Shown: piece by piece, positions 34,707 through 51,124 of the stretch
Numbering within the stretch: position 1 is the stretch's first letter
Layout: every line of letters begins with the position of its first letter
Assembly: GCF_004331915.1 (NCBI RefSeq)
Contig: NZ_CP036528.1
Location: 1,487,733 to 1,551,732, forward strand
Direction: 5' to 3'
Length of the DNA: 64,000 nucleotides
Origin: Ureibacillus thermophilus
GTDB taxonomy: Bacteria; Bacillota; Bacilli; Bacillales_A; Planococcaceae
Position numbers and translations under genes: made by a program
Notes under the pieces: generated by a model
Seen by the model: the letters and a program-made list of their open reading frames with translations, nothing else
Told to the model about the DNA's origin: nothing
The model's database searches: none

Positions 34707-36041
34707 GTGGGTCGATACACAAAAGAAGACATCTATCGATTAGTGGAAGAAAAGGAAGTAAAATTCATCCGACTACAATTTACAGATATTTTAGGAACCA
34801 TTAAAAACGTAGAAATCCCTGTAAGCCAATTAGATAAAGCGCTGGACAATAAAATGATGTTCGATGGTTCATCCATTGAAGGTTTTGTGCGCATTGAAGA
34901 ATCCGATATGTACCTATACCCAGATTTCGATACATTTATGGTCTTCCCTTGGACAACAGGAAAAGGAAAAGTGGCTCGCTTTATTTGCGATATATATACT
35001 GCTGATGGGGAGCCGTTCTTAGGCGACCCTCGCACAAATTTAAAACGTGTATTAAAAGAAATGGAAGCAATGGGCTTTACACATTTTAATTTAGGGCCGG
35101 AACCAGAATTCTTCTTATTTAAATTAGATGAAAACGGAGAACCGACTCTTGAAGTGAACGACCATGGAGGCTATTTTGACTTAGCCCCAACGGACCTAGG
35201 GGAAAACTGCCGCCGCGATATCGTCCTTGAATTGGAAGAAATGGGCTTTGAAGTGGAAGCTTCCCACCATGAAGTGGCGCCAGGCCAACATGAAATTGAC
35301 TTCAAATACGCGGATGTTATTACAGCTTGCGACAATATTCAAACTTTCAAATTAGTGGTGAAAACCATTGCCCGCAAACATGGTTTACACGCAACATTTA
35401 TGCCGAAGCCATTATTTGGCGAAGCCGGTTCAGGAATGCACTGCAACGTTTCTTTATTCAAAGGAAATGAAAATGCCTTCTTTGATCCAAACACTGAACT
35501 TGGATTATCTGAAACAGCAATGCAATTTATGGCTGGTTTGTTAAAACATGTGCAAAGTTTTACTGCCATTACAAACCCTACAGTGAACTCATATAAACGT
35601 TTAGTTCCGGGTTTTGAAGCGCCTGTATATGTTGCTTGGTCTGCCCAAAACCGTTCGCCGTTGATTCGCGTTCCAGCGTCCCGTGGTGTGTCAACACGTC
35701 TTGAAGTGCGTTCTGTTGACCCATCTGCAAACCCATATTTAGCGATGGCGGTTATTTTAGCTGCTGGTTTGGATGGGATTAAAAACAAATTAACTCCACC
35801 AGCTCCAATTAACCGAAACATTTATGTGATGACGGAAGAGGAACGCCGCGAAAACGGAATTGAAAACTTGCCTGCACAGCTCGATGATGCTCTTCGTTTG
35901 CTTGAAAAAGATGAAGTGGTGAAAAACGCACTTGGACCACACATCTATCAAAACTTTAAAGAAGCGAAGGAAATCGAATTCGAAATGTACCGCTCCACAG
36001 TTCACCCGTGGGAGAGAGAGCATTATTTGAAAATGTATTAA
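34707..36041 (+). CDS. glnA: Glutamine synthetase type I
   Basis: 444 residues, the GSI-alpha length of Firmicutes. [13 protein letters not shown]-type N-terminus, [10 protein letters not shown], the glutamate/ammonia loop region [17 protein letters not shown] and the C-terminal EREHYLKMY are present. It makes glutamine from glutamate and ammonia, and in its feedback-inhibited form controls GlnR and TnrA. GTG start after AGGAGAGTGG. Ends in a terminator shared with the convergent pilus genes. Confidence 0.97.
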
Positions 36042-36057
36042 TTAGTTAAGTATACAA

Positions 36058-36096
36058 ACACAGCAGCCTTAGAATTATCTATTGGCTGCTGTTTTA
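36058..36096. terminator. Bidirectional terminator between glnA and the minor pilin operon
   Basis: ACAGCAGCC (36060-36068) pairs with GGCTGCTGT (36084-36092). T-rich on the plus side, and the minus side also reads into a T-containing stretch. Confidence 0.75.
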
Positions 36097-36100
36097 CATT

Positions 36101-38008
36101 TTACATTTGTTTATCTATATATCTCGGTATGTCAACATTGTAGATTAGTTCTTCTGTTCGATTTAATTGAAGATATGTGGCAACTACATCTTCGTTATAA
36201 TGAACTTGCAAACGTGAGTGGTATTTATAGCATTTTTGTTGGTTATTTTTATTCGGATAACTACAGCGAGAATCATTCGGAGATTGATATGAATTGTAAG
36301 TATCATAATCATCTTGTTTTTCACTTATTAAGTAATAATCGTCTCCATATTTTTTACTATTCGAAAACGAACTTTTACTAGATTTTCCCCTGATAGCATG
36401 TAAAGTAATTCTATTCCCATAAATACCGCCATGGATTTTCATATTGGATCCTACACCGTATATTTCAAGTTCTTGATCTGAATAAAGATAACCATAAATT
36501 TCACTCGGTTTATCATGTTCAGACCATAATGAATTATTAGCTAATTCTACTTTTCCTTTTGAGAAAATAACTAACGTACCATTTGAATTTTCGCCATTAT
36601 CATTTTTGTAAGTAAGGCTGTTTATTTTCGAATATTGAATATCAACTCCTGATTGACCATTTACATAAATTAATGCATTAGCTGATAAGTCAGAATTTTC
36701 AATAATGAGTTTTCCATTCACAAAGATACTACCTTGCAGTTCAACTTTACCTGTAATCGTCAAATCACCATTTACATACAAAGTATCGTTTATCTTGACT
36801 TTTGTAGAAGTTCTATCTCCACCTTTAATACTTAAATTCGCATTCGTAGCAAGGCGATCAAACTCAAAATTACCGTATAATAATACAAAGGTTTCTGTAT
36901 TATTTGGTACATAGTATCTTGTTTTTGTACAAGGGACTAATCCACACCAACCTAAATAAGTTTTTGTATAAACTAAGTATCTTTTACCTTTATAAGTACC
37001 ACTTGATATGTTGTAACTATCTGGAATTGATTGTAAATCTGTTGTATTAGGTGAATTTCTTTCGTATTTATAAGCAGATTTTTTACTCTCTATATCCACT
37101 GGTTTTATTTCTGAATCGGTAGTGATAACCGAAGGAGCAGTATCAAATACGCTAGTATCAAATAAATCGCTTATTTTATCTTTTTCGATGTTACGTAATA
37201 CGCTATTATTCAATAAGTGAATCCTATCGTAACGTTCTTTATTAGTTAGTTTGTCTACCACTTGATAAAATTTACTATTATTACCTACTACAATTTTTGG
37301 GCTACTATGTTTACTTGTTGATTTCATACTTGGCTTTAAGCTTTCAACCCAATAGTGATGATTATCATTAATTATATGAGCTTTTTCGTAAGTGGTTAAG
37401 CTTCCGTTAAACCTTAAATCGCCAGTTATTTGTACCGCACCGTTTAAATGAATATTTCCTTGTGAAGTGAGTGCATATTTTAACTGTTCAGGAACTTTAT
37501 CAGCTCCAATTTCTACAAATGTTGTTAATTGTTTTCTTTTCCCATTAACATTACCAATGCTTACTATTTCTAATTTTCTTTTTAATACATTTAATTCCCC
37601 GTCTTCATCATAAACTGGATGTACCTCTTTAATACAAGCGATAGATTGGTCGGAAGCCTTACTTGTTGTAACGACTAATCCGCTAATAAGATTCCCGTTA
37701 GAGTCGAATGTACATCGATATTTCGGATGATTTTTGTCATATTTTTCTAACTCATCAATAAAATCATCTTTTGATTTTCCGCTTTTTGTAAAATCGGCAA
37801 GGCTAGTATTGATATCATTTACAATATAATCTAAGCCCTTTTCTGCTAAATTTAATGATTGAACATTTTCTTCGCGAGTAGTGTTTCTTACGGTCCCGTT
37901 CATAGATAATGTAACTAATGAAAAAGCTATTACTGAAAATAATATGATAATCGCAAAGGTAAGGAATAGGGTGTATCCTTGTGAATTGTTAATATATTTT
38001 TTTAACAT
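36101..38008 (-). CDS. Large PilX-like minor pilin/adhesin candidate
   Basis: 635 residues starting at the ATG at 38008, with GAGGAGGG upstream. The N-terminus (SQGYTLFLTFAIIILFSVIAFSLVTL) is a single hydrophobic helix like PilX-type minor pilins, but without the usual Glu5. A short helical part is followed by a long extracellular region. There, hydrophobic-glycine repeats (LTSQGNIHLNGAVQITGDL; LYVNGDLTITGKVELQGS; IFVNGKLIIENS) suggest a beta-helix or bactofilin-like stack. At least seven cysteines lie in this region, some paired closely (GWCGLVPC; RCSYP with QKCYK), suggesting disulfides. Last gene of the minus arm. Role inferred as pilus tip or adhesion. Confidence 0.75.
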   Translation of the reverse strand: MLKKYINNSQGYTLFLTFAIIILFSVIAFSLVTLSMNGTVRNTTREENVQSLNLAEKGLDYIVNDINTSLADFTKSGKSKDDFIDELEKYDKNHPKYRCTFDSNGNLISGLVVTTSKASDQSIACIKEVHPVYDEDGELNVLKRKLEIVSIGNVNGKRKQLTTFVEIGADKVPEQLKYALTSQGNIHLNGAVQITGDLRFNGSLTTYEKAHIINDNHHYWVESLKPSMKSTSKHSSPKIVVGNNSKFYQVVDKLTNKERYDRIHLLNNSVLRNIEKDKISDLFDTSVFDTAPSVITTDSEIKPVDIESKKSAYKYERNSPNTTDLQSIPDSYNISSGTYKGKRYLVYTKTYLGWCGLVPCTKTRYYVPNNTETFVLLYGNFEFDRLATNANLSIKGGDRTSTKVKINDTLYVNGDLTITGKVELQGSIFVNGKLIIENSDLSANALIYVNGQSGVDIQYSKINSLTYKNDNGENSNGTLVIFSKGKVELANNSLWSEHDKPSEIYGYLYSDQELEIYGVGSNMKIHGGIYGNRITLHAIRGKSSKSSFSNSKKYGDDYYLISEKQDDYDTYNSYQSPNDSRCSYPNKNNQQKCYKYHSRLQVHYNEDVVATYLQLNRTEELIYNVDIPRYIDKQM

Positions 38009-38009
38009 A

Positions 38010-38516
38010 CTAACCCTCCTCTTCTTCTTTTTTAAGATCATTGATTGATCGAACTTCAGTTTTAAAGGTTTTTTCAAAATTGTTTTTGGTAGATTGTAAA
38101 GTCAACATGATAGTATATGTACGATTAAGATTGGTATCCTCAGTGTACCCAATTTCGCTTTTTTCCCATACAACTTCAACGATTGCATCATTGTATTGAA
38201 GTGTTGAACCATTTAAATAAATTTGCCCATTTTTAAATCCGGTAATAGTTGAAGAATCATCAATTTTTTCAAGATAATAATTATTGTGACTAGGATCTTC
38301 TATAAATTTAAATTCAGAATTTTTTGAGGTATATATTTCTTTTATTAGACTCGACATAATAAAATCCGCTGCGTCTCTTATAGCAATTTCGGTGGTTACT
38401 TTTTCTTGTGTTTTAAAAGAATTTATTAAAAGGGTAGTAGAAAAAAGAAGTACAAAGCTGGAAATAATGATTGCTGCAAGTAGCTCAACTAAAGTGAGAC
38501 CTCTTTGATTATTCAT
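38010..38516 (-). CDS. Minor pilin, PilW/ComGF-like
   Basis: 168 residues with a class III/type IV prepilin signal. R-G before LTLVELLAAIIISSFVLLFS gives a prepilin peptidase cut after Gly, with Glu at +5. The rest is a polar pilin-type domain. Ends one base before the ATG of the 635-residue gene and overlaps the upstream pilin gene by eight bases, so the three are one operon. It would be processed by the peptidase at 50372-51124 and incorporated into the pilus by the PilBTC machine. Confidence 0.85.
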   Translation of the reverse strand: MNNQRGLTLVELLAAIIISSFVLLFSTTLLINSFKTQEKVTTEIAIRDAADFIMSSLIKEIYTSKNSEFKFIEDPSHNNYYLEKIDDSSTITGFKNGQIYLNGSTLQYNDAIVEVVWEKSEIGYTEDTNLNRTYTIMLTLQSTKNNFEKTFKTEVRSINDLKKEEEEG

Positions 38517-38934
38517 ATATTACGTACCCCTCTACAGTACTTTTTTTACCGTTATATTCAACAGTAACAATAACGTTAATTAATTTGTTGTTTTTTTCAT
38601 TGTTATTTTGTGTTGCAATAATTTCGAGGTCGTAAGTATCGCCGCCCGAATATATTTCTTTTGTTTTTCGAATAGTTTGATTATAATTTACTGAATAATC
38701 TACTGGGGGTAAATTACCGGTTTCAAAAGGAGATAACTTTATTCTTTCAAGTTCTGCTTCAGCTAAATTGATAGCAATTAACTTGTCATTATTGTAATTA
38801 GCAGTATTAAACGAAGAAATGAATAATGAATAAAAGCTAAGTAAAGCGATTGTAATTAAAACAATTGATGCGACAGCTTCAACTAACGAAAAACCTTGAT
38901 TATTCTTAATCATATTAAAAATTTTTAAATACAA
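38509..38934 (-). CDS. Minor pilin, PilV-like
   Basis: About 141 residues from the TTG at 38934, with AGGTG six bases upstream. The alternative GTG at 38943 overlaps that site. Prepilin signal Q-G before FSLVEAVASIVLITIALLSF, Glu at +5. The following NLAEAELERIKLSP resembles the PilV/GspI group. It is the first gene of the three-gene minor pilin operon. Confidence 0.82.
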   Translation of the reverse strand: MYLKIFNMIKNNQGFSLVEAVASIVLITIALLSFYSLFISSFNTANYNNDKLIAINLAEAELERIKLSPFETGNLPPVDYSVNYNQTIRKTKEIYSGGDTYDLEIIATQNNNEKNNKLINVIVTVEYNGKKSTVEGYVIYE

Positions 38935-39555
38935 TTTCTTCACCTACCTGTCATAACAACAAAAAATGTCTTTGATGAATAGAGATTGATCAATGAAAAA
39001 CGAATGCATAAAGTATGGATTTGAGTAGCAGTGATTATTATTTATTGAATGAATGATCCCAAATATTGAAGAAATCTTTTTCATTGTATTTTATGAGTAA
39101 ACTTTCAGATTTGATGAAATAGTAGTAATAAAGACATATTTTAAATAGAATAGTTTTAAGATTAATTATTAATATAATACAAATGTAATAGGTGGTTGAA
39201 AATGGGTATAAAGTTATAAAAATGCTATGAACTCACATTTATGACTTAGAAATTAGTAAAAATTTCTTTTGGAGTGTAGGTCGTTCCACTTCTTTTTTTT
39301 CACATTTTTAATATCCAGTTTGTTTGCAACAATAAATGTCATTGTGTGTAATAAAACAATATATTTTCTCGTTAAGGGATGAGTAGTAAAATTTTCTTAT
39401 TCAATATCATTATATGTGAAGGATAAATGAAGAAAATTACATTTCTATTGAAATATTGACAATAAAGTGATTTTTTCTGCTTACTCATTAGAGATCCTTA
39501 AAATGTTTATATTAATATTGAATCGATCCAATAAAAAAGGGGCATGTCTAAAAAA
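38935..39555. other. AT-rich intergenic stretch
   Basis: About 620 bases, strongly AT-rich, between the minor pilin operon and the IS3-family element. No supported reading frame, repeat or RNA was found. The promoter of the minor pilin operon must lie here or further upstream, but no convincing -35/-10 pair could be chosen. Confidence 0.5.
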
Positions 39556-39601
39556 TGAACTGCTCCCTGTCAAATAGACAGTGTAAAAAATAAAAATGTT
39601 A

Positions 39602-40502
39602 CTAAGCGGCTTGAGCCCTGTATTCTAAGGGATTTAAGCCGTTTAATTTTTTCTGATAACGGAAATGGTTATAAAAATAAATAGATTCATCAATCGATTG
39701 TTTCCGTGCTTGATATGAATCATAGGTATTCAAATGATATTTTTCACATTTGAATTTACTCCAAAAGGATTCAGTTGGAGCGTTATCGATGCATTGACCC
39801 ACACGAGACATACTTTGTGTTCATTGTGCCTCGTCTATGATCTCCTTATATTTTTTGGACGTATATTGGAATCCTCGATCGCTATGTACGAGTGGATGTT
39901 CATCAGGTTTCAGGGTTTGGATTGCTTTTCGTATGGTTTTAAAAACGAATTGATTATTGGAATGGCCCAATTCATAACTCGCAATAGAACCATCATGCAA
40001 ATCAATAATGGCACTTAAATAGGCTTTTTTTTTCGTTCCCATATTTCAGCTCCGTTACATCTGTACACCATTTCGTATTGGGCTTTTCTGCAGTAAACTC
40101 GCGATTTAATCGATTTTCAGCGACGTGTTGAACAGGTGATTTCTTATATCGTTCTCGTTTTCTTCGAATCACTGCTTGAATCTTCGCAATTTTCATCAAA
40201 CAATCAATGCGTTTTTTATTGACAAGGGGCTCATTCGCCATTTTTCTGTATCGATTAATGGTGATGGTCATGCGACGATAACCATAGATTCCATTGACTT
40301 GTTCGTGAAGCGTTTTAATGCCCTCTAACAGTGATTCATTCAATTGTTCACGCGCTGATAGAGTGCGTTTCAGCCATTTATAATAAGCTGCTCGTGAAAC
40401 GCCTGCGATGTGACAAAGTAAAATGATAGATAAGCGTTCGGTTTCATGTAATTCTTGAATGGCCTCATATCGAGTTTGTAATCGTACTTGGGTTAACGAC
40501 AC
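39602..40502 (-). pseudogene. IS3-family transposase orfB, disrupted
   Basis: The HTH_21 region and DDE core are recognisable (DVTELKYG, YLSAIIDLHDGSIASYELG, HSDRGFQYTS, SMSRVGQCIDNAP). The frame shifts at an A9 run (about 40027-40035), after which KKAYLSAI continues in another frame. A TGA at 39821-39823 interrupts it again, in front of the T-Q-S-M-S-R-V-G block. Full-length product would be about 300 residues. The A9 run could also be a sequencing error, but the stop is independent. Confidence 0.85.
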
Positions 40503-40528
40503 TTCCTTTCGATTTCCTCTAATTTTTT

Positions 40529-41173
40529 TTAAAATAGATTTTCTGCACGTAAACGTTCATTCTCGCGTTCAATTCGTTTGATTTCTAATTTAAATTTTTC
40601 TTCCGTCGTTAATTCAGCCTCTGATTTTGTGCGTCCACGGCGATCTTGTAGCCCTTCTTCTCCATGTAACTCAAATTTTTTCACCCATTGGTATACATGT
40701 TGATAAGAAACTTGATAAGTTTGGGCTGCTAATTGATAATTTTTATGGTGCTTTAAGCAAAAATCGACTATCTCCATTCGTTCTAGTAGGGTTGTTTTTC
40801 TACCTTTTGTCATTGTTTTACTCAATCCTTTACCCGAATCTTTTATATTACCATGACTAGTATACTTTTTCACCCACTTCAATAAAATCGTTCTACCTGA
40901 AATTTGATGTTTTTTCATTAATTCGAGTAAAGAATATTCACCAGATAAATAATCCTCCACCGCTTGAATCTTCTGTTTTCTTGTATAGCATCGTGGAGAA
41001 AAGTTAGAGCGAAAGACCGCTTCACCAAAAGCTTCATACTTTCGAACCCATTCTTTTAAAATGCTTTGGTGAATTTTATATTGACGAGCAAGCTTTTTAA
41101 ATGAATAATCACCCATTAAATATAAATGAATCAGTTTTAACATGAACTCTTTAGGATACTTGTAAAAGGTCAT
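40529..41173 (-). CDS. IS3-family orfA (helix-turn-helix protein)
   Basis: 214 residues with three consecutive helix-turn-helix units (about 1-60, 60-115 and 135-185: LARQYKIHQSILKEWVRKY; LMKKHQISGRTILLKWVKKY; AAQTYQVSYQHVYQWVKKF). A leucine-zipper-like end follows (KRIERENERLRAENL). It is intact, and in an active element would be joined to orfB by frameshifting at the following A8 tract. Confidence 0.85.
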   Translation of the reverse strand: MTFYKYPKEFMLKLIHLYLMGDYSFKKLARQYKIHQSILKEWVRKYEAFGEAVFRSNFSPRCYTRKQKIQAVEDYLSGEYSLLELMKKHQISGRTILLKWVKKYTSHGNIKDSGKGLSKTMTKGRKTTLLERMEIVDFCLKHHKNYQLAAQTYQVSYQHVYQWVKKFELHGEEGLQDRRGRTKSEAELTTEEKFKLEIKRIERENERLRAENLF

Positions 41174-41254
41174 AATGAAAGCCCCCTATTAGGTCAGATG
41201 AATTTTTATTTTTTCATCTGTCTACCTAATAGGGAGCATATCACCTTAAAATGA

Positions 41255-41713
41255 TTATTCATTTTCTGACGTTTCCCATTTCAAAACATTATTTTTTTCT
41301 ATGATTCGAGAACCGCTTTTCTTATCGAATACAGCGACGTTTATTATGGATAAATTTTTTTCTGTTTTATGGGGCCTCATTTTCAAAATAACGTAAAATT
41401 CATCATCTTCATCATATTCCTTTTCGAAGGTGAAGACGGCGTACTCTCCTTCTTTCGGTTCACGATAACCAATCGATTGGATTGCTTCGAAACGTTTTTC
41501 AAAGGGATATTTTTCAGTAACGGCAAAGACTTTAGCAAGCTCTGCTTCTGCCACTTTTGTAGCTTCTGCTACCACTTCTTCTGAAAATTTTAAATTTCGG
41601 TCTTTCATAGTAAAATAAACCGTTGCAACGCCTGAAATTAGGAAAAAAACACAAAGAATGACTACTGTAATGATAAGAGGTTTACCGCCTCTTTCGTTTT
41701 TTAGGTATTTCAC
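41255..41713 (-). CDS. Small membrane-anchored pilus-associated protein, unrecognised
   Basis: 152 residues starting at the GTG at 41713, with AAGGTG six bases upstream; a GTG at 41722 is less well placed. N-terminal ERGGKPLIITVVILCVFFLISGV is one hydrophobic helix after a charged, glycine-containing leader, reminiscent of PilX-type or pilin-like proteins but without the Glu5 motif. The rest is an acidic, beta-rich extracytoplasmic domain (DEDDEFYVILKMRP). I do not recognise the family. It is divergent from the pil operon, and its separation from the minor pilins is due to the IS, so it probably belonged to that operon. Confidence 0.65.
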   Translation of the reverse strand: MKYLKNERGGKPLIITVVILCVFFLISGVATVYFTMKDRNLKFSEEVVAEATKVAEAELAKVFAVTEKYPFEKRFEAIQSIGYREPKEGEYAVFTFEKEYDEDDEFYVILKMRPHKTEKNLSIINVAVFDKKSGSRIIEKNNVLKWETSENE

Positions 41714-41722
41714 TATATGCAC

Positions 41723-42153
41723 CTTCTTATATATGTGGTTTGAAATCTATCTTCAATGTAACCGAAAAAGGTGAAAATCGCTAGTGGATTCAAAGGTTTG
41801 TTCTCTCATTGTCACAATTTTAAGTATTTATGGCGGATGATCCTCTTGAATATAATGGAAAATATCAGGGTACAAAAAAGAAACAAAATATACAAATCTT
41901 AATACATGTAACAAAGTTTTATTAATACAATAATAGCATAAGAGAACGATTATTTTTTAATAAAAGATATCAGCGATTCTATAGTTAATGAAAAAACAGC
42001 TAAATTTTCACAAATTAGGCATAAAGAATCATACAAAATTATAGAAAATACTGTAATCTATAATTATAGTGACTTATTAATCAATTCGACATCTTTTGTT
42101 TTAGTATTTTTTAGCTAAAATAATGAAAAAAATTACAGCGACGAGGTGATAGG
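41723..42153. other. Divergent AT-rich control region of the pilus island
   Basis: 430 bases between the minus-strand small membrane protein and the plus-strand pil operon. It must hold both promoters. TATAAT-like hexamers occur (for example TATAAT at 42059-42064 and TAAAAT at 42116-42121), but none has a well-spaced -35. No binding-site palindrome was found. Confidence 0.4.
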
Positions 42154-43470
42154 TTGAAGTACATAAAATACCATAAAGCATTCACCTTCATCCTTGTGAT
42201 TATTGCAATGATTTGCTTAATTGTTTTCATGCAAACTTCATTAAAAGCTTCTGCGGACGGGAAACGAGCAAATGGTTCTACTATTGGTGGAGTCAATGTT
42301 TCTGGTTTGAAAGATGATGAAATAAAAGAAGTGCTGGAAAATGCAATTCTTGAATGGAAATCAGAGCCAATCATCATACAGGGTGGCGGTGCAGAACTGA
42401 CGATTAATCCACAGGAAATACAATTTGATATCGAACGGTCAATAAAAAATTACCGAAATCTAACAGACAAACCATTTTTCCTGTTTTGGACATCTGATAG
42501 GAAAGTGCAAGTTCCAATATATATATCAGAGAGTGACGTTGTAAAAAATCAAATTTCTAACATCTCCATTTGGGATACGGAGGAAACTTACAATCAAGTT
42601 GTTATGCAAGCTTCTTATTTAAAATCCCATGAAATTGAGGCAATTGTAACCGATACGACACAGCTTAAAAATGAAAGAATCGCATTATCCATTGAGGAAA
42701 TTCCCGAAAACGCAATAGGCGTACAATTATTAGCGGAAGCTTTGGACGAATATATATTAAAGCCGAACAACCCATTTTCTTTGTTGACAGATTTAGAAAA
42801 TCTAACAGATTCCGCAAACATTGAAGGATTAAATTTTTTTGGCTCAATGATTTACAATACAGTTTTACAAAGCAAAGTGGAGATTTTGGAAAGACACCCG
42901 CAAAAAGAGATTCCAGATTATTTGCAGCCCGGCATGGATGTATATATAGATGCTTTTACAGAGAAGGATTTACAATTTGTTAATGTTTCTGAGCATCCAT
43001 ATTTGCTGAAAACAACCGTTGAAGACAATCGGTTGAAAGTGGAGTTGTATTCTAGCGTAAAAGAAGCGACAGTCCAAGTTTATGTTGATCAACAACCTAT
43101 CGCACCTCGAATCATAAACAGATACTCTAAAGATTTGCCAATGGGTGCAACGAAGTTAATTCAAGAAGAGAAACAGGGTCTTCAAGTAACGGTTACAAGA
43201 AAGATTTCGGAAAATGGGGACGAACAAATACAAGAGATTAGTAGAGATTATTATGCTCCAATAAATCGAATCGTGTTGAAATCAACAAGTCAACCAGTTT
43301 CTGATGCGATTGAAGAACAGGGCAATAACACAAATTCTAGTCTAGTAGAAAACGTGGATTTAGATGGTGATGGATTACCGGATTACGACAACAGCAATGA
43401 AGTGAGTCTTGATGAAGATTTGCCTCCTGGAAGTTACTATGATAAAGGCGGTAATTTAGTAACTCCATAG
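42154..43470 (+). CDS. VanW/YoaR-like surface protein with G5-like domain
   Basis: 438 residues, TTG start after GAGGTGATAGG. N-terminal membrane anchor or signal (AFTFILVIIAMICLIVFMQT). A peptidoglycan-binding-4-like module follows (about 40-150: GVNVSGLKDDEIKEVLENA). A degenerate VanW core (about 180-290) contains KPNNPFSLL, MIYNTVLQSKVEILERHP and YLQPGMDVYID, but the usual GGGICQ is missing. Next come a G5-like segment (about 325-375) and a D-L-D-G-D-G-L-P-D-Y-D acidic loop resembling a calcium-binding motif. First gene of the pilBTC operon. Probably acts at the cell wall, perhaps guiding or holding the pilus. Confidence 0.75.
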   Translation: MKYIKYHKAFTFILVIIAMICLIVFMQTSLKASADGKRANGSTIGGVNVSGLKDDEIKEVLENAILEWKSEPIIIQGGGAELTINPQEIQFDIERSIKNYRNLTDKPFFLFWTSDRKVQVPIYISESDVVKNQISNISIWDTEETYNQVVMQASYLKSHEIEAIVTDTTQLKNERIALSIEEIPENAIGVQLLAEALDEYILKPNNPFSLLTDLENLTDSANIEGLNFFGSMIYNTVLQSKVEILERHPQKEIPDYLQPGMDVYIDAFTEKDLQFVNVSEHPYLLKTTVEDNRLKVELYSSVKEATVQVYVDQQPIAPRIINRYSKDLPMGATKLIQEEKQGLQVTVTRKISENGDEQIQEISRDYYAPINRIVLKSTSQPVSDAIEEQGNNTNSSLVENVDLDGDGLPDYDNSNEVSLDEDLPPGSYYDKGGNLVTP

Positions 43471-43485
43471 AAAGGAGAGGACAAA

Positions 43486-45153
43486 ATGATTGCAAAAAAT
43501 CGGAAACGATTAGGGGACTTGCTTGTAGAAGCAGGAGTCATTACACCTGAACAACTCGACTATGCATTGAAAAATAAATCAAAAGATGAGAAACTGGGAG
43601 ACTTTTTAATCAGAGAAAACTTTATAACAGAGCAACAATTGATTGAAGTGCTTGAATTCCAATTGGGCGTTCCGCATATTAACTTAAGCCAATATCATAT
43701 CGATCCGGAAGTGCTTCAATTAGTGCCGGCAGAATTGGCAAAACGGGTACAAATAATGCCTATCAGAAAAGATAAAAATAGATTGTTCATTGCAATGGCT
43801 GACCCAATGGACTATTTTGCCATCGAGGAAGTTCGGATGGCAACTGGTTGCCATATTGAAACGGCCATTGCTGCAAAAGATGATTTGTACAGAACCATTG
43901 CAAAATATTATGATTTGCAAGAGTCTTTGGATAAGGCGATGGCAGATTTAAACGATACAACTTCTGAAACTGTGGAGCAGCAAATCACCGATGAGGAATC
44001 ACCAATCGTCCGCTTAGTGAACCAATTAATTTCCAATGCCGTATTGCAACGGGCGAGCGACATTCACTTTGAGCCGCTAGAAACGAAATTTCGGGTAAGA
44101 TACCGGATAGATGGTGTGCTCAGAACGGAGCGTTCCCTTCCAAAACATATGCAAAATATGATCACTGCCCGCATTAAAATTTTGGGGAATCTAAATATTA
44201 CTGAAAACCGATTACCGCAAGATGGGCGCATTAAAACAACTGTCAATTTTCGACCGGTGGATATACGTTTATCAACTTTGCCGACGATTTACGGCGAAAA
44301 AATCGTTATGCGTATCCTCGATTTGAACAATGCTGCCACGAGTATTGATAAATTAGGGTTTAGCGAACAAAATGAAAAATTATTCCGGTACATGATTTCT
44401 AGACCAAACGGCATCGTACTCATTTCCGGTCCAACTGGATCAGGTAAATCGACGACGTTGTATGCCGCTTTATCTGAGCTGAACCAAGAAGGTGTTAATA
44501 TCATAACGGTTGAAGATCCTGTGGAATATCGATTGGAAGGAATCAACCAAATACAAGTAAGAGAAGAAGTTGGATTAACTTTTGCCACAGGATTGCGCTC
44601 CATACTCCGCCAAGACCCAGATATTATTATGATTGGAGAAATCCGTGACACTGAAACAGCAGAGATTGCCACTCGAGCTTCCCTTACTGGTCACTTAGTT
44701 TTAAGTACTCTCCATACAAACAGCGCCGTAGAATCGATTTCTCGACTTGAAGATATGGGGATTGAGCCGTTTTTAATTGCATCTTCTGTAGTCGGAGTTA
44801 TCGCACAACGTTTAGTAAGACGAGTATGCCGTGACTGTGCAGAAACTGTACCTGCAACCTTGCGGGAAAAGGAGCTATTTTCTAAGGAAGGGCTTCAAAT
44901 AGAACATGTGCTTCGAGGTCGCGGTTGCGCAGTTTGTAACCATACCGGCTATAGAGGAAGAATTGCAATTCATGAAATCTTGCCTATCGATCGTACCGTG
45001 AGAGAATACATTTTGCAGCGGAAAGGGACTCCAGCAATTATGGATTATATGAAACGTGAAGGCTATCGCACATTACTTGGAGATGGATTTTTGAAAGTTT
45101 TACAAGGCTTGACTACAACAGAAGAAGTATTACGTGTTTCAAGGGTCGAATAG
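43486..45153 (+). CDS. pilB: Type IV pilus assembly ATPase PilB
   Basis: 555 residues. The N-terminal MshEN/GspE-N domain (about 5-150, LGDLLVEAGVITPEQLDYAL) could bind cyclic di-GMP or PilM. The ATPase core has Walker A GPTGSGKST near residue 315, Asp/His boxes, and DPDIIMIGEIRD as Walker B. Four cysteines (C-R-D-C and C-A-V-C-N-H-T-G-Y) form the zinc site of extension ATPases. It powers pilus extension from the cytoplasmic side. GAAAGGAGAGG precedes the ATG. Confidence 0.94.
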   Translation: MIAKNRKRLGDLLVEAGVITPEQLDYALKNKSKDEKLGDFLIRENFITEQQLIEVLEFQLGVPHINLSQYHIDPEVLQLVPAELAKRVQIMPIRKDKNRLFIAMADPMDYFAIEEVRMATGCHIETAIAAKDDLYRTIAKYYDLQESLDKAMADLNDTTSETVEQQITDEESPIVRLVNQLISNAVLQRASDIHFEPLETKFRVRYRIDGVLRTERSLPKHMQNMITARIKILGNLNITENRLPQDGRIKTTVNFRPVDIRLSTLPTIYGEKIVMRILDLNNAATSIDKLGFSEQNEKLFRYMISRPNGIVLISGPTGSGKSTTLYAALSELNQEGVNIITVEDPVEYRLEGINQIQVREEVGLTFATGLRSILRQDPDIIMIGEIRDTETAEIATRASLTGHLVLSTLHTNSAVESISRLEDMGIEPFLIASSVVGVIAQRLVRRVCRDCAETVPATLREKELFSKEGLQIEHVLRGRGCAVCNHTGYRGRIAIHEILPIDRTVREYILQRKGTPAIMDYMKREGYRTLLGDGFLKVLQGLTTTEEVLRVSRVE

Positions 45154-45167
45154 AAAGGGATGTACAT

Positions 45168-46211
45168 ATGGCATATTCAATCCATGATTTACTGCAAAAA
45201 GCTTTTGAATACAATGCATCGGATTTGCACATTACGGTTGGTACTCCGCCAGTGTATCGAATACATGGCCGACTTGAAAGGTTTGGAGAGTTCGGTTTGA
45301 CTGCCGAAGAAATTGAAGACATGGTGAAAGCCATCATTCCGGACCACAAAATGAAAGATTACCAAACAATAGGCGATGCGGATTTTAACTACGCTTTCAA
45401 CGAAAACTTTCGATTCCGCGTCAATGCTTATCATCAACGAAATGCACCAGCACTCGCTTTTCGCTTGATTCCAACGAAAATCCCGACAATTGAATCGCTC
45501 GGAATGCCGAAAGTGTTATATGATTTGGCGGAAAAACCCCAAGGACTTGTATTAGTTACCGGTCCAACCGGCTCGGGGAAATCGTCCACGTTGGCGGCAA
45601 TGATTAACCATATCAATTCAACGAAGGCTAAACATATCATTACTCTGGAAGATCCGGTTGAATATATTCATCCGCATAAAAAATCCATTGTCAATCAACG
45701 GGAAATTGGAATTGACGCGAAAGATTTTGCAACAGGACTAAGAGCGGCTCTTCGTCAAGACCCGGATGTTATTCTTGTTGGGGAGATGCGGGATTTAGAA
45801 ACGATTTCAACAGCGATTACTGCGGCAGAAACAGGCCATTTAGTAATGGCGACACTTCATACATCAAGTGCTGCTACAACAATTGACCGCATTATAGATG
45901 TATTTCCACCGCATCAACAAAACCAAATTCGCAATCAACTTGCAAATGTATTGCAAGGGATCATTTCCCAGCGCCTTTTCGTCCGAAAAGATAAAAAAGG
46001 CCGCATCGCAGCAACTGAAATACTAGTTGCAGTGCCTTCGGTGACAAATTTAATACGCAGCGAAAAGATTCAACAAATTCAAAATGTTATGCAGACTAGC
46101 CGTGCTTTAGGCATGCATACATTGCAACATTCAATTCAAGAATTGCTGTCGAGAGGAATAGTGTCGATGGAGGAAGTCAAGCCATACATGAACGTTGGTG
46201 ATTACCATTGA
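45168..46211 (+). CDS. pilT: Type IV pilus retraction ATPase PilT
   Basis: 347 residues. Walker A GPTGSGKSS near residue 131, DPDVILVGEMRD as Walker B, HLVMATLHTSSA, and a C-terminal TNLIRSEKIQQIQN resembling the AIRNLIRE retraction motif. No zinc cysteines. Its presence argues for dynamic pili able to retract, not only for a static competence pseudopilus. The stop overlaps the pilC start (TTGA). Confidence 0.94.
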   Translation: MAYSIHDLLQKAFEYNASDLHITVGTPPVYRIHGRLERFGEFGLTAEEIEDMVKAIIPDHKMKDYQTIGDADFNYAFNENFRFRVNAYHQRNAPALAFRLIPTKIPTIESLGMPKVLYDLAEKPQGLVLVTGPTGSGKSSTLAAMINHINSTKAKHIITLEDPVEYIHPHKKSIVNQREIGIDAKDFATGLRAALRQDPDVILVGEMRDLETISTAITAAETGHLVMATLHTSSAATTIDRIIDVFPPHQQNQIRNQLANVLQGIISQRLFVRKDKKGRIAATEILVAVPSVTNLIRSEKIQQIQNVMQTSRALGMHTLQHSIQELLSRGIVSMEEVKPYMNVGDYH

Positions 46212-47416
46212 CCATCTACAGGTATGAAGGCAGGACGAAAGCGGGTGAAATAAAAAAAGGAAAAATCGATGCGGCAAGTAAAAAAGAAGCGATTGCCAAG
46301 TTGCGAGGGCTAGGCATTAATCCTCGGGAAGTATATGAATCATCGAGCATCTTTGACAAAGAGCTGAAAATGGGCTGGGCAAAAGTAAAAAATCAGGATT
46401 TCGTCATCTATTGTCGGCAATTTGCTACGCTGATTCGCGCAGGTGTATCGATTGTTGATTCTACAAATATATTATCTCGCCAAACAAAGAGCAAGCCGTT
46501 AAAAAAAGCCTTGGAGATGGTGGAGGAGGATATTCGAACGGGGATTTCCTTCTCCGATGCGACAAAAAAACATCCGAAAGTGTTTCCCGAATTGTTTACC
46601 AACATGATCGCTTCCGCAGAAGTATCAGGGAATATGGATATTACTTTGGATAAATTGGCTACAACCTTCGAAAAGCAATATAACTTAAAGAAAAAGATTC
46701 GATCGACGATGACATATCCGTTAATATTGCTTTTACTAACTATTGCTGTAGCCATATTTATGATGATAGTCATCGTACCTACATTTGTTGAATCATTTGA
46801 AAGCATGGGAGCAGAGCTGCCAACTTTAACGGTCGTTACCATCAAAATCAGCGGAATGCTGCAAAAATATTGGTGGATTGTTCTTATCCTTCTCGTAGTA
46901 ACAATTATGTTGCTTTATTACCTATATAAAAACAACAAAAAGTTCAACTATATAGCGAATTACGTATTGTTGAAAACCCCAATTTTTGGACCATTATTAC
47001 AGAAAACCGTCATTGCTCGGATGGTGTCAACTTTATCTTCTTTATTTAGCAGCGCTGTTCCAATTCTTCAAAGTTTAACGATTGTAGAAAAAGTGGTTGG
47101 AAATCCTGTCGTTTCAAAAGTCGTAAAAGAGCTAAGAGATAGTTTGGAAAAAGGGAATACACTATCAGAGCCGTTAGAGAAAAGTTGGCTCTTTCCGCCG
47201 CTTGTAACTTCAATGGTATCAATTGGAGAGTCCACAGGATCACTCGATTACATGTTGGAAAAAGTTGCGGAATTTTATGAAGCAGAAGTGGATCGAAATG
47301 TAGATACGTTAAAGTCGTTAATTGAACCTATCATGATTCTATTTCTGGCAGTAATTGTAGGTGGAATCGTTGCAGCCATCTTCTTGCCGATGTTTAGCTT
47401 ATATGAACATATGTAG
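46208..47416 (+). CDS. pilC: Type IV pilus platform protein PilC
   Basis: 402 residues, GspF/PilC family with two T2SSF domains and at least three membrane segments (about 170-200, 215-245 and the C-terminal LIEPIMILFLAVIVGGIVAAIFLPMF). TTG at 46208 overlaps the pilT stop (TTGA). It gives the N-terminus T-I-Y-R-Y-E-G-R-T found in relatives. It is the inner-membrane platform rotated by PilB/PilT. Confidence 0.93.
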   Translation: MTIYRYEGRTKAGEIKKGKIDAASKKEAIAKLRGLGINPREVYESSSIFDKELKMGWAKVKNQDFVIYCRQFATLIRAGVSIVDSTNILSRQTKSKPLKKALEMVEEDIRTGISFSDATKKHPKVFPELFTNMIASAEVSGNMDITLDKLATTFEKQYNLKKKIRSTMTYPLILLLLTIAVAIFMMIVIVPTFVESFESMGAELPTLTVVTIKISGMLQKYWWIVLILLVVTIMLLYYLYKNNKKFNYIANYVLLKTPIFGPLLQKTVIARMVSTLSSLFSSAVPILQSLTIVEKVVGNPVVSKVVKELRDSLEKGNTLSEPLEKSWLFPPLVTSMVSIGESTGSLDYMLEKVAEFYEAEVDRNVDTLKSLIEPIMILFLAVIVGGIVAAIFLPMFSLYEHM

Positions 47417-47454
47417 GAAAATAGATTACTAGTTTTCGGAGTGTTTTTAAGGAG

Positions 47455-47502
47455 GTGAGAGAAACGGCAACAACATTTCCGAGCTCAATCAAAACCCACT
47501 AA
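47455..47502 (+). other. Second strong Shine-Dalgarno with a 15-codon reading frame before the major pilin
   Basis: TTTTTAAGGAGGTGAGAG at about 47444-47461 is a perfect ribosome site that is not followed by the pilin start. A GTG at 47455, overlapping it, opens 15 codons ending at TAA 47500-47502. The pilin itself has a separate AAGGAGG about 60 bases downstream. Could be a leader, a remnant of an older pilin start, or an RNA-stability element. Confidence 0.4.
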
Positions 47503-47527
47503 CGAATAAACTTAAGGAGGTTTTTAT

Positions 47528-47998
47528 ATGTTGAATTTATTGAAAAAACGTTTGAAAAATGAAAAAGGTTTAACATTAGTCGAATTATTAGCGGTAATTG
47601 TTATTTTGGCCATTGTTGCAGCAATAGCGATTCCAGCGATTGGGAATATCATTGAAAATTCACGTTATAATGCCGTAAAAGCAGATGCAATCAATGTACT
47701 AAATGCAGCCAATTTATATTTTACAGAGAATAATGGAGAAACAACTGTTACTGTAAAAAAATTAAAAGAAGATGGATTCTTAGATAGCGAAGGAAAAATT
47801 CCAACTGACAGTACAATTACTAAAGCTAAGGGAGGTCATAAATTAAAAGCATCTGATATAACATATTCTGGTAATAAAAAAGTTACATTTAATGATGCTA
47901 CAATTCAAGCCATTAATGCTGATAATCAAGAAGGTAGTACTGAAGGTGATAAAACTATTCCACAAGGAACCCAAACCCCTTCACAAGGAACCCAATAG
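47528..47998 (+). CDS. pilA: Major type IV pilin (PilA/ComGC-like)
   Basis: 156 residues. The prepilin leader MLNLLKKRLKNEKG is cut before L-T-L-V-E-L-L-A-V-I-V-I-L, with Glu at +5 and proline within the helix (AIPAIGNIIENSRYN). The globular part is small and polar and contains no cysteine. The C-terminus ends in a repeat, QGTQTPSQGTQ. A strong AAGGAGG precedes it. A hairpin just after the gene separates it from pilM and may increase its share of message, as expected for the most abundant subunit. Confidence 0.87.
   Translation: MLNLLKKRLKNEKGLTLVELLAVIVILAIVAAIAIPAIGNIIENSRYNAVKADAINVLNAANLYFTENNGETTVTVKKLKEDGFLDSEGKIPTDSTITKAKGGHKLKASDITYSGNKKVTFNDATIQAINADNQEGSTEGDKTIPQGTQTPSQGTQ
47961..47995 (+). 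repeat. Direct repeat at the 3' end of the pilin gene
   Basis: CACAAGGAACCCAA occurs at 47961-47974 and 47982-47995, 21 bases apart (seven codons, in frame), encoding the QGTQ repeat of the pilin tail. Confidence 0.8.
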
Positions 47999-48007
47999 TT
48001 TTTCATA

Positions 48008-48036
48008 GAACACCCAACTCTTTTTGTTGGGTGTTC
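48008..48036 (+). terminator. Hairpin between pilin and pilM, without T tract
   Basis: GAACACCCAAC (48008-48018), loop TCTTTTT, GTTGGGTGTTC (48026-48036): a perfect 11-base stem with CATTGAG following. More likely a partial terminator or RNA-protecting structure than a full stop. Confidence 0.6.
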
Positions 48037-48103
48037 CATTGAGAAACTAATGACTAAATTCTATTTAAGTTAGAAGATAAATTATTCAAAAGGAGCCCTG
48101 CGT

Positions 48104-49081
48104 ATGTTTAGACGAAAGAAAAAATCCCATGTATCCATTGAAATCAATGATTACGTACTTCGCTCTTTAGTGATGAAGGGGTCAGATTTATCGCAGGCGA
48201 AAGTATTGGAAGTAGAAATACCAGAAGGAGTAATTGAAGAATCTGACGTCATAGATGAAATGGCGTTGTTCCAACTCTTTAAACAATACGCAACAAATTG
48301 GGGCGGGAAAAACCAAAATGTTCGTTTTATCGTTCCGGACTCTTTTATTTTATTAAAATCTTTTGAGCATCCGTATGATATTGAACCAACTAAATTAAGA
48401 GAATATGCGGAAATGGAAATCGGTTACTCCATTCATCTTCCATTCGAAGAGCCCCTCATTGATGTGTTTGACCCGGAGGAAGGGGACGGCAAGGCGATGA
48501 TGTTTGCAGCTAACTCCGAACAATTGAATAAGTACATACATTTATTTTTAGATATTTCGATGAATCCTGAAATCGCAGATGTTCGGGCCCTTTGCAATTT
48601 ACGATTGCTCGAATCGTTGAACTTGTTGGATGAACAAAAAACTTATTTGCTCACTTATTGGTTGATTAACGAACTATCTATTACCATTTATTCAAAAGGA
48701 AATGTTGAATTCCAACGGTTCCAATTGATCGATACGGATATGAATCAATGGAAGGCAAAAGAAGTGGATGAGCATCAACTAGACTTTTTCTATGATGGGG
48801 AACTGGAAGATTATCTAATGCTTATTTCGGACCAAGTGTTAGAACTTGACCGCATTATGAATTTCTTCCGATTCTCTTTAAATAAAGGAGAAAAGGGAGT
48901 CGATGAAATCATCGTGATGGGGGATAACCCGTATCTTGATAATATTTATTCCAATTTGCAGCAAAGTTTCGATTTACCGATGAAGTTGATTAACGACCAG
49001 TTTATGACTGAGCATTTTCAAGGATTCAAGGCAAAGCATGCAACATTAATCGGACTTGCCTTAAAGGAGGTTAAATCGTGA
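48104..49081 (+). CDS. pilM: Type IV pilus assembly protein PilM
   Basis: 325 residues, actin-like ATPase fold of PilM: the N-terminal KSHVSIEINDYVLRSLVMKG strand-turn-strand, and IVMGDNPYLDNIYSNL near the end. PilM is cytoplasmic and docks on the N-terminal tail of PilN (I-N-L-L-P), linking the membrane frame to PilB. AGGAG upstream of the ATG. Overlaps the pilN start by four bases (GTGA). Confidence 0.82.
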   Translation: MFRRKKKSHVSIEINDYVLRSLVMKGSDLSQAKVLEVEIPEGVIEESDVIDEMALFQLFKQYATNWGGKNQNVRFIVPDSFILLKSFEHPYDIEPTKLREYAEMEIGYSIHLPFEEPLIDVFDPEEGDGKAMMFAANSEQLNKYIHLFLDISMNPEIADVRALCNLRLLESLNLLDEQKTYLLTYWLINELSITIYSKGNVEFQRFQLIDTDMNQWKAKEVDEHQLDFFYDGELEDYLMLISDQVLELDRIMNFFRFSLNKGEKGVDEIIVMGDNPYLDNIYSNLQQSFDLPMKLINDQFMTEHFQGFKAKHATLIGLALKEVKS

Positions 49082-49653
49082 TTCCAGATATTAACCTGTT
49101 GCCGAAAATCGATAAGAGGCAGTCCACATCGAAATGGCTTTATATTCTATTATCTGTACTCACGCTTTTACTCATTGCTTTTTTGGTGTTCCAATATTTT
49201 GAACTTGGAGGCAAAATTTCTGATTTACGGAACGAAGAGCAACAAGTTTTAGCTGAAAGGAATCAATTGCAAGCACAATTAGACAACATGGCAGTCGATA
49301 CAGGTTCATTAAAGCAATCAGTGGAATTTATTGAAAAAATTTCCTATGCTGTTTCGCCAATTATCGATGAAACGGTACGTCTGCAACCGAGACAAACTTA
49401 TTTAAGAGAATATGCTTTTGATGCCCAGTCTGTACAACTGTCAATGGATTTTGAAACTTTAAGTGACATTTCCAACTATATATCTCGATTATCAAGAAGC
49501 TCTTACTTTCAAGATGTTCAAGTAACAACTATTGAACATTTTGAAGTTGGTCATCAAGAAGCGGCAAATAACTTCCATGAAATTCCTCGGTATAAAGTAA
49601 AATTCACAATGATGATCGATCAAGATTATTTAGCTGCTGGAGGTGTTGAATGA
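49078..49653 (+). CDS. pilN: Type IV pilus assembly protein PilN
   Basis: 191 residues. The start M-I-P-D-I-N-L-L-P-K is the PilM-binding motif of PilN. One membrane helix (about 21-43) is followed by a short coiled coil (NEEQQVLAERNQLQAQLDNM) and a ferredoxin-like periplasm-equivalent domain. GTG start overlapping pilM. Overlaps pilO by four bases. Confidence 0.87.
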   Translation: MIPDINLLPKIDKRQSTSKWLYILLSVLTLLLIAFLVFQYFELGGKISDLRNEEQQVLAERNQLQAQLDNMAVDTGSLKQSVEFIEKISYAVSPIIDETVRLQPRQTYLREYAFDAQSVQLSMDFETLSDISNYISRLSRSSYFQDVQVTTIEHFEVGHQEAANNFHEIPRYKVKFTMMIDQDYLAAGGVE

Positions 49654-50345
49654 TGAAGTTGACAAGTGGCAAAAATTCATCCACATTACTATTAATAGCC
49701 CTCGTAGCAGCTCTATTATTTGCTCTATACTATTACATTTTATTGCCGAAAAAAGAGGAAGCGGCATCACTTGAATCGTCCATCTTATCGACCCGCTCTG
49801 AAATCGAATCGATTCAACAACAAATTGAGGAATTGAATGCCAGTAAAAATGCAGAGCATGCGACTTTATTTGAATTGAGAAAAAAAGTTCCTGCTACAAG
49901 AAACTTGGATGATATCGTTTTAAAAATAGAAGAAACTCAATATGTTACGGGAACGAAAATTTTATCTATCCATTTTAACAACTATGATGAACTTGTATCG
50001 AGTTCGCAGTTGGAAAGCCCTAATGTTCCAACTGAAGAAGGAGAAAATGGGGAAGATGCAACTACAGAAGCTGAAGATTCGGAAGAAACTCCTGTATCCC
50101 CAATAGCAAAAGAGAATTTGCCATCGGAGTTGAAATTAATTACTTTTGAAGTCCGTGTAGAATCTCCAGACTTCAATCATTTAGTGAATTTTATTAAAGA
50201 AATTGAAAAAATTAAGCGCATTATGCACATTGACGCTATCAATTTTTCTTTACCGGGTGAAGAAAGTGAATTTGATGAGGATTCAGAAGATAGCATCACG
50301 GCAACTGTAAAAGTAACGACCTTTTATTATGAAGGAGAAGAGTAA
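49650..50345 (+). CDS. pilO: Type IV pilus assembly protein PilO
   Basis: 231 residues: one N-terminal membrane helix (about 10-28), a coiled coil (about 32-75), then a compact domain interrupted by a Glu-rich insertion (about 122-150, EEGENGEDATTEAEDSEE). Layout and position after pilN fit PilO, the partner that forms the alignment complex with PilN. Sequence similarity is weak by nature in this family, so assignment depends on context. Confidence 0.8.
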   Translation: MMKLTSGKNSSTLLLIALVAALLFALYYYILLPKKEEAASLESSILSTRSEIESIQQQIEELNASKNAEHATLFELRKKVPATRNLDDIVLKIEETQYVTGTKILSIHFNNYDELVSSSQLESPNVPTEEGENGEDATTEAEDSEETPVSPIAKENLPSELKLITFEVRVESPDFNHLVNFIKEIEKIKRIMHIDAINFSLPGEESEFDEDSEDSITATVKVTTFYYEGEE

Positions 50346-50371
50346 TTGTTATTTTATGAGGAGCGTTTTTC

Positions 50372-51124
50372 ATGGTAATGATGTATGAAATTTTTTTCTT
50401 CCTATTTGGAATTGCATTGGGATCATTTTATAACGTTGTGGGACTAAGAATTCCTAATCATGCGTCAATCATTGCACCACCGTCCCATTGTCCACATTGT
50501 CAAAGGAAACTTTCTGCCATTGATTTAATTCCTGTACTTTCATACATACTATTACGTGGAAAATGCCGAACGTGCGGTGCTAAAATTTCCCCCATTTACA
50601 TCATAACAGAACTTATAGCAGGTTTGCTTTTTGTATGGAGTTATCACCAATTAGGATTTTCCATTGAATTGTTTGTTGCGTTATTCTTCTTTTCATTGCT
50701 GCTGATTATTGTCGTATCGGATCTTCAATATATGTTAATTCCGGATAAAGTGCTTCTTTTCTTTTTGCCATTCCTGCTTATCGGACGCATTGCTTCCCCC
50801 CTTGAGCCATGGTGGGATGCGCTGCTTGGTGGTGTTGTAGGCTTTGCCATTTTATTTGTAATTGCAGTGATTTCAAAAGGCGGCATGGGAGGCGGAGATA
50901 TTAAGTTGTTTTTCTTGATTGGTTTGGTGCTGGGAACGGTGAAAACATTGCTTACATTGTTTGTAGCCAGCGTCATCGGCATGATCATTGGCATCATCGT
51001 ATTAAAAGTTCGAAAGCAAGGCCGAAAAACACCGGTTCCCTTTGGTCCATCCATCGCCATCGCCAGCTGCATAGTTTATTTTTATGGAGATTCTATAATC
51101 GATTGGTATTGGAATTTATTTTGA
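50372..51124 (+). CDS. pilD: Prepilin peptidase (leader peptidase/N-methyltransferase)
   Basis: 250 residues, multi-spanning aspartic peptidase of the PilD/ComC family. A cytoplasmic zinc loop has C-P-H-C and C-R-T-C; the catalytic aspartates are in SDLQYMLIPD and GGGDIKLFFLIG (G-x-G-D). It cuts prepilin leaders after Gly and methylates the new N-terminus. It is the last gene of the pil operon and should process the major and minor pilins described here. Confidence 0.93.
   Translation: MVMMYEIFFFLFGIALGSFYNVVGLRIPNHASIIAPPSHCPHCQRKLSAIDLIPVLSYILLRGKCRTCGAKISPIYIITELIAGLLFVWSYHQLGFSIELFVALFFFSLLLIIVVSDLQYMLIPDKVLLFFLPFLLIGRIASPLEPWWDALLGGVVGFAILFVIAVISKGGMGGGDIKLFFLIGLVLGTVKTLLTLFVASVIGMIIGIIVLKVRKQGRKTPVPFGPSIAIASCIVYFYGDSIIDWYWNLF

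Follow-up and report, generated by a model that had tools for sequence, protein, structure and literature searches.

The type IVa pilus of Streptococcus sanguinis (PilA-PilO and PilT) is built in a monoderm cell with PilM, PilN, PilO and PilT and without a secretin, and its large modular minor pilins (the PilB and PilC of that species) serve adhesion (PMC6916266, PMC10191384; here and below, each paper is cited for the part of it that was covered). In 2011, Imam et al. described pil operons from Bacillales, as well as pilT genes in such operons of Gram-positive bacteria, with Geobacillus, Exiguobacterium and Bacillus sp. NRRL B-14911 having operons of this kind and com operons too (PMC3244431); the type IV pilus of Paenibacillus thiaminolyticus is likewise encoded by such a Bacillales operon, carried there on a mobile element (PMC9765702). 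How monoderm pili cross the peptidoglycan was called an open question in a 2019 review (PMC6916266), and LytF has been linked to extrusion of the Com pilus in S. sanguinis (PMC13192262). Here we describe a pil locus of Ureibacillus thermophilus, which lies between glnA and lexA at positions 36101..51124 of the window, i.e., the whole stretch of 64,000 nucleotides that was analyzed, in a genome of 3.02 Mb assembled as one contig.

The locus resembles the S. sanguinis system in its PilM/N/O, its PilT, the lack of a secretin gene and the presence of a large minor pilin, but it differs in having a VanW-G5 leader protein, a divergent, exchangeable tip cassette and a PilX-like large subunit. Moreover, no prepilin peptidase other than its PilD was found in the genome, whereas in S. 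sanguinis a loner comC exists in addition to the pil locus (PMC10790768). The P. thiaminolyticus genes differ in sitting on a mobile element, and unlike the locus, Com pili have neither PilM/N/O nor PilT. In Bacillus subtilis, the Com pilus is made by comG and comC, the latter lying at the folC-maf site that pil islands of its relatives use (PMC7232415). We consider it likely that the best explanation as a whole is a retractable type IVa pilus with a PilD shared with the Com system, an exchangeable tip, a VanW protein acting in the wall, and comC genes that are relics of such operons. In this explanation the gene content, the synteny, the lone peptidase, the orphan pilD pattern, the transfer of the cassette and the co-occurrence of VanW come from computation, and the filament, its retraction, adhesion, the role in the wall, the sharing of PilD and the past of comC in B. 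subtilis itself are inferences. Candidates for what goes beyond the published accounts found are the shared PilD with its relic comC, the swapping of the tip cassette and the VanW-G5 protein as a pilus part: a shared peptidase, a relic comC or tip exchange is not described in the covered parts of PMC3244431 and PMC9765702, and VanW is not mentioned in the main text of either.

A type IVa pilus locus between glnA and lexA

The rightward arm has the order vanW-pilB-pilT-pilC-pilA-pilM-pilN-pilO-pilD, from the vanW start at 42154 to the pilD end at 51124 on the forward strand, and the leftward arm consists of orf155, an insertion sequence (IS), pilV1, pilW2 and tipX; all named genes are present and open. 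The extension ATPase PilB (43486..45153) matches T2SSE with 465.6 bits and, in its N-terminal domain, MshEN with 76.8 bits in Pfam, and it carries the MshE-type cyclic di-GMP (c-di-GMP) motif NF053729 (66.3 bits versus a cut-off of 38); solved PilB/PilF structures are its top sequence relatives in the PDB. The retraction ATPase PilT (45168..46211) passes TIGR01420 at 473.6 bits (cut-off 319.1), with solved PilT chains as its top PDB relatives (E about 1e-101). These are followed by the platform protein PilC (46208..47416), with two T2SSF stretches, the major pilin PilA (47528..47998), with an NEKG/LTLVE leader and a PF07963 score of 31.5 bits, PilM (48104..49081, PF11104), PilN (49078..49653, PF05137), PilO (49650..50345, PF04350) and the prepilin peptidase PilD (50372..51124), with A24_N and A24 domains. 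The Pfam matches of PilB, PilC and PilD exceed their cut-offs by a wide margin. Class III signal peptides mark the major and minor pilins, three N_methyl matches in the locus exceeding the cut-off. The components of a monoderm type IVa pilus, namely PilB/PilC/PilD, PilT, PilM/N/O and pilins, are thus all found, and neither a secretin nor PilP occurs among the locus proteins scanned, the rest of the genome not having been searched for one.

Several observations weigh against this assignment. The Pfam scores of PilM, PilN and PilO barely exceed their cut-offs (29.0/27, 26.3/22.8 and 24.5/22 bits, respectively), PilM is under the NCBIfam cut-off (TIGR01175, 44.7/133 bits), and PilB (627.8/675.65) and PilC are below the NCBIfam type IV pilus equivalog cut-offs; the filament, its motility and pilin processing are all read from sequence. 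The names PilB, PilC and PilM/N/O are nevertheless settled because the genes occupy set places in a conserved gene order, and a chance arrangement is excluded because dozens of relatives share that order. Altogether, and with the confidence that we attach to the explanation as a whole, the locus is predicted to encode a monoderm type IVa pilus that is complete and has PilT as its retraction ATPase, in keeping with an earlier note on this DNA that had proposed a complete island with such an ATPase and without a secretin. In the proposed mechanism, PilD would cleave the pilins, both PilA and the minor ones; PilB would drive polymerization on PilC with PilM/N/O, probably under gating by c-di-GMP; and PilT would pull the pilus back. 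Control of the pilus by c-di-GMP is possible, given the c-di-GMP-type domain of PilB; in many genomes a GAF-GGDEF protein is encoded beside folC and the pil island (e.g., L088:7434-9140).

Two other machines were compared with the locus. A type II secretion system does not fit, as PilT is present and no secretin was seen among the locus proteins scanned, and neither does a Com pilus (comGA-GG without PilM/N/O or PilT), since the locus has PilM/N/O and PilT and comG lies elsewhere. The earlier note had set the pilus apart from the comG pseudopilus and named the lack of a comG operon as what would speak against it; a search found ComGA (336.0 bits, cut-off 300), ComGC (113.7 bits, cut-off 75) and further ComG-type pilins in the same genome, about 340 kb from the pil locus. 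Because this separate operon exists, a role in DNA uptake only is unlikely. A broader form of that idea, in which the machine is a second DNA-uptake or secretion pseudopilus and not a pilus for motility or adhesion, draws on the finding that the sole solved relative of the tip protein profile is ComZ of Thermus, a DNA-binding, tip-associated protein; we hold it to be quite improbable in view of the comG genes, the presence of PilT, PilM/N/O and several minor pilins, and the retention of ComGC by pilus-less relatives.

The pilus belongs to a known kind, and its layout is not peculiar. By PilB, the nearest named relative is Ureibacillus thermosphaericus DSM 10633 (91% identity), followed by other Ureibacillus and Lysinibacillus. 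Of 101 genomes, that of the window included, 66 gave a PilM match, and these include 20 of the 24 others of the genus; the gene order of the rightward arm recurs in most of the best 80 of 269 confirmed named loci and of 79 unnamed loci. The minor-pilin arm is often divergent and a VanW leader is common in these relatives, so that the earlier view of the split, divergent layout with its leader gene as a candidate for something not well described is not supported; many Bacillaceae place pilD between pilA and pilM. Two sites recur, one from glnA to lexA (Ureibacillus, Lysinibacillus) and one that begins at folC, commonly accompanied by a GGDEF gene, and extends to maf-radC-mreB (Psychrobacillus, Sporosarcina, Rummeliibacillus and many Bacillaceae), and islands at other sites also occur. 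Lysinibacillus odysseyi NBRC 100172 (L111/L145) has two tandem pil islands, both having a tip cassette and a pilD of their own. A Sporosarcina-like island appears in a record titled Arthrobacter beigongshangensis (L121), which is probably misnamed, its PilD grouping with Sporosarcina; one further locus (L061, genome G033) has a second cluster with PilM/N/O-like genes and no pilB match within the stretch fetched.

To the right of the pil locus, a candidate relative of glutamine amidotransferases, read from sequence, sits ahead of lexA. Consensus promoters and terminators in the locus show no excess over shuffles. Clostridial pilins are known to be under riboswitch control; such control was rejected for the locus, as in 33000-53500 no Rfam match came near its gathering score, the two sub-threshold matches reaching 27.3/81 and 24.9/76 bits.

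A single prepilin peptidase and a proposed history of comC

A search with PF01478 found one A24 peptidase in the genome, the PilD of the pil locus. Across the genus and family an A24 peptidase was detected in 59 of 60 genomes, the exception (G018) being 76% complete, and a second one in five: G059, which has two islands, and four genomes with short frames of 171-190 amino acids that are probably Tad-type. Because ComG pilins need a peptidase and PilD is the single one found, PilD probably serves both the type IVa pilus and the Com pilus. PilD and ComC are homologous (PMC3244431). After loss of the pilus, pilD would then stay as the Com peptidase.

Among 51 A24 neighborhoods (11 picked for missing PilM and 40 from a class-wide list), 28 hold a pilus island and 16 hold pilD alone, in genomes without a PilB-length PF00437 match. 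Five of these orphans lie at glnA-lexA (G001, G016, G041, G054 and G023, whose contig ends after pilD) and 11 at folC-maf/radC (G057, G045, G073, G123, G208, G280, G094, G188, G217, G263 and G098); ComGC exceeds its cut-off in 15 of the 16 genomes. G196 has an orphan pilD at folC-maf, yet a pilus elsewhere in its genome. Remnants stand beside some orphans: a 74-amino-acid piece of pilO (73% identity) directly ahead of pilD in G057 and an 80-amino-acid pilO piece (39% identity) in G045, with the partial sets pilN-pilO-pilD in G030 and pilT-pilD in G197 and G216; a remnant scan of 20 loci found none in 15. These remnants of pilO, pilN and pilT therefore indicate deletion as the direction of change. 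A quick tree built from 148 PilD proteins requires 13 or more switches between having and lacking the island, with many orphans nested in island clades, and a constraint placing the orphans in a single clade was rejected (p-AU 1e-5; 83 rows, 10 island-state changes).

PMC7232415 locates the comC of B. subtilis, with spoIIB as a neighbor, between folC and maf, and that of Bacillus anthracis elsewhere. Because the B. subtilis gene occupies the folC-maf site, and given the pattern of orphans and remnants there, we propose that a solitary comC at this site is what survives of a type IVa pilus operon that was lost, and that this probably holds for B. subtilis as well. No statement that comC is such a relic was found among the matches listed in searches of open-licence PMC papers or in the covered part of PMC6668835, in which Denise et al. 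(2019) leave prepilin peptidases out because they are exchanged between systems and their tree is poorly supported.

That exchangeability (PMC6668835) also fits a different history, in which the pilus is an ordinary type IVa pilus and the orphan pilD is an ancestral comC beside which pilus operons were inserted several times. The distant loner comC of S. sanguinis, an organization called widely conserved (PMC10790768), agrees with this, as do the orphans f14, G263 and G098, which lie on long or basal branches and for which loss is not supported, and three pilus-less genomes (G039, G051 and G056) that depart from the pattern, their peptidase being distant (29-34% identity) and lying elsewhere. 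However, in islands at the same sites pilD stands inside the operon, either last or between pilA and pilM, and the nesting of many orphans in island clades, the rejected single clade and the remnants all argue for deletion; we judge the insertion history unlikely. Other points count against repeated loss with retention of pilD: 50 of 145 inner branches of the quick PilD tree are open, the position of comC in B. subtilis is taken from PMC7232415, its genome lying outside the comparison, and selection for Com is not proven everywhere, G098 having no ComGC and G054 a split ComGA match. In G054 the ComGA-size PF00437 match is in two pieces about 21 kb apart, with ComGC present, as if an element had been inserted into comGA.

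Apparent exchange of the tip cassette

The leftward arm encodes three minor pilins on the reverse strand. The large one, tipX (36101..38008), is PilX-like, with a leader ending in ...NNSQG and without Glu5, a residue that GspK/PilX-type subunits may lack; its open reading frame of 658 amino acids spans 36101-38077, and the likeliest start is the ATG at 38008, giving 635 amino acids. The other two, pilW2 (38010..38516) and pilV1 (38509..38943), have an N_methyl segment with Glu5 and exceed the PF07963 cut-off of 21.2 bits (29.6 and 23.2 bits, respectively), bearing out the prediction of at least two clear minor pilins, to which tipX is now added; pilV1 is weakly PilV/ComGE/GspI-like (TIGR02523, 26.4 bits, below its cut-off). 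Among 46 aligned TipX members, PilX_N was detected in 14, DUF7305 in 17 and bactofilin in 4, and the sole solved relative of their profile is ComZ (PDB 6qvi, E 0.002). Our best guess is that TipX is probably a pilin with a beta-solenoid head acting as a tip adhesin; the weakness of the ComZ match, and the failure of the window TipX to reach any Pfam cut-off, speak against it. TipX, PilW2 and PilV1 would form a tip complex that starts the fiber and sets its binding specificity.

Bases 36001-39542 match those of U. thermosphaericus at 97.8% identity over 3544 bp and belong to a cassette of about 3.6 kb (35949..39545). Identity at fourfold sites is 97.6% in tipX, 96.6% in pilW2 and 98.0% in pilV1, as against 35.5-64.8% in the 14 other genes compared (glnA 48.6%, orf155 54.8%, vanW 56.3%, pilB 52.4%, pilC 64.8% and lexA 52.3%), and the GC content is 29.3% in the cassette versus 38.2% in the core. 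At the left edge, identity is 81% in 35807-35906 and then 93-100% per 100-base step, with no mismatches between 35948 and 36070; glnA ends at 36041, so the break falls within its last 100 bases. The right edge of high identity, about 39545, is the start of the IS. In the next two relatives the three cassette proteins are 30-42% identical, though PilB is 88-89% identical. Because the cassette is nearly the same in both species while its flanking genes have diverged at their fourfold sites, it appears to have been exchanged recently and horizontally between species.

Strong purifying selection or an assembly error could instead have left the cassette near-identical with no transfer, and such clear identity is seen in one species pair only. 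Against this stand the fourfold sites and the non-coding part (98-99% identical), which match as well as the protein positions do, along with the break inside glnA and the divergence of the cassette proteins in the next relatives. With a difference of about 2% between them, the two copies are not a single sequence put in the wrong place, and we regard this account as highly improbable. Among 25 genus genomes (own included), four match the cassette, and at length only own and G022; the other two extend over 67 and 29 bases, with scoring limited to 12 candidate places in each genome.

A mobile-element origin of the cassette was rejected, no match being found in plasmids or phages, and transposition driven by the IS is disfavored, as the IS abuts the right end and the left break in glnA has no IS end. 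For this latter reason homologous recombination is preferred, and the divergent cassette would be replaceable as a block through recombination anchored in glnA; the IS may have had a role at the right end. The IS (39556..41243) has 42-nucleotide imperfect terminal inverted repeats and two transposase reading frames (40529-41173 and 40002-40502), the second of which appears short; the genome has one full-length copy, that of the window, and several partial matches.

Exchange of this kind is consistent with the wider comparison. In 70 pairs of loci whose PilB proteins share 88% identity or more, the median identity was 88% for pilC, 86% for pilD, 83% for pilM, 75% for pilO and 68% for vanW, and 61% for pilW2, 55% for pilA, 42% for pilV1 and 31% for the tip. 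The tip therefore turns over much faster than the machine (31% versus 83-88% for pilM, pilD and pilC), and in 40 of 64 scored pairs, by the best-matching tip per pair, it was less than 50% identical. In the other 24, which tell against a uniformly fast turnover, as does the pilW2 median, tips were at least 50% identical and some more than 90%. A conserved shaft with varied tips is known from minor-pilin diversity in Pseudomonas, and plasmid pili vary their tips by a shufflon. The IncI2 plasmid TP114, with its PilV tip adhesins, resembles the window locus in this respect (PMC9045228), but the window differs from plasmid pili in the recombination of a whole three-pilin cassette between species.

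Between the IS and vanW lies orf155 (41255..41722, reverse strand), encoding a 155-amino-acid protein with a single transmembrane (TM) segment and no Pfam family over cut-off. Similar one-TM proteins of 137-169 amino acids adjoin the tip cassette in other loci of Ureibacillus and Lysinibacillus (L037, L098 and L102), on the vanW side in thermophilic Ureibacillus and on the glnA side in others. A fourth pilin was rejected as its identity, the N-termini of its relatives being without a constant Gly/Glu5 motif.

The VanW-G5 leader protein

The leader gene vanW (42154..43470, forward strand) encodes a protein with an N-terminal TM anchor, a diverged VanW domain and a G5 domain. The VanW domain (PF04294) scores 49 bits, or 44.8 in a second search, over model positions 57-130 of 130, as compared with 136-177 bits for the high-scoring VanW proteins of a 25-genome search. 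Among 52 aligned VanW-G5 proteins, a set chosen by similarity to the window protein, VanW was detected in 52 and G5 in 51. Across 125 islands, vanW lies directly upstream of pilB in 103 and elsewhere in the locus in five, one contig was too short, and in 16 it was not found, a result that weighs against the proposed part in the pilus.

The gene might be a passenger or serve cell-wall housekeeping, unconnected to the pilus, and besides those 16 islands the occurrence of high-scoring VanW proteins without pili agrees with this. Yet the PF04294 search of the 25 genomes detected the pilus type, which scores low (26-45 bits) and adjoins pilB, in all 7 with a pilus and in 0 of 18 without; this result, together with its place upstream of pilB, leaves the passenger account with little probability. 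Because G5 domains occur in surface proteins, as among the solved relatives, and bind wall or surface polymers, we propose the membrane-anchored VanW-G5 protein as a candidate wall-side guide or anchor, which would probably help the fiber to pass or anchor in the peptidoglycan. None of the matches listed in searches of open-licence PMC papers named VanW as a pilus part, and a 2026 review has the word, in its covered part, only as an author name (PMC13234629).

We give about even chances to the full proposal, in which the loner comC in Bacillus and related bacteria would be all that survives of a type IVa pilus operon, retained through the shared peptidase, and the operon would combine a dedicated VanW-G5 wall protein and a traded tip cassette with a conserved shaft machine of switchable specificity. 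If true, it would explain why comC lies apart from comG, as a testable history of repeated pilus loss. It predicts that in Lysinibacillus and Ureibacillus one peptidase links surface pili with DNA uptake, it gives a case of species that trade pilus tips as a block, and it offers in the VanW-G5 protein a concrete candidate for how monoderm pili may pass or anchor in the wall.

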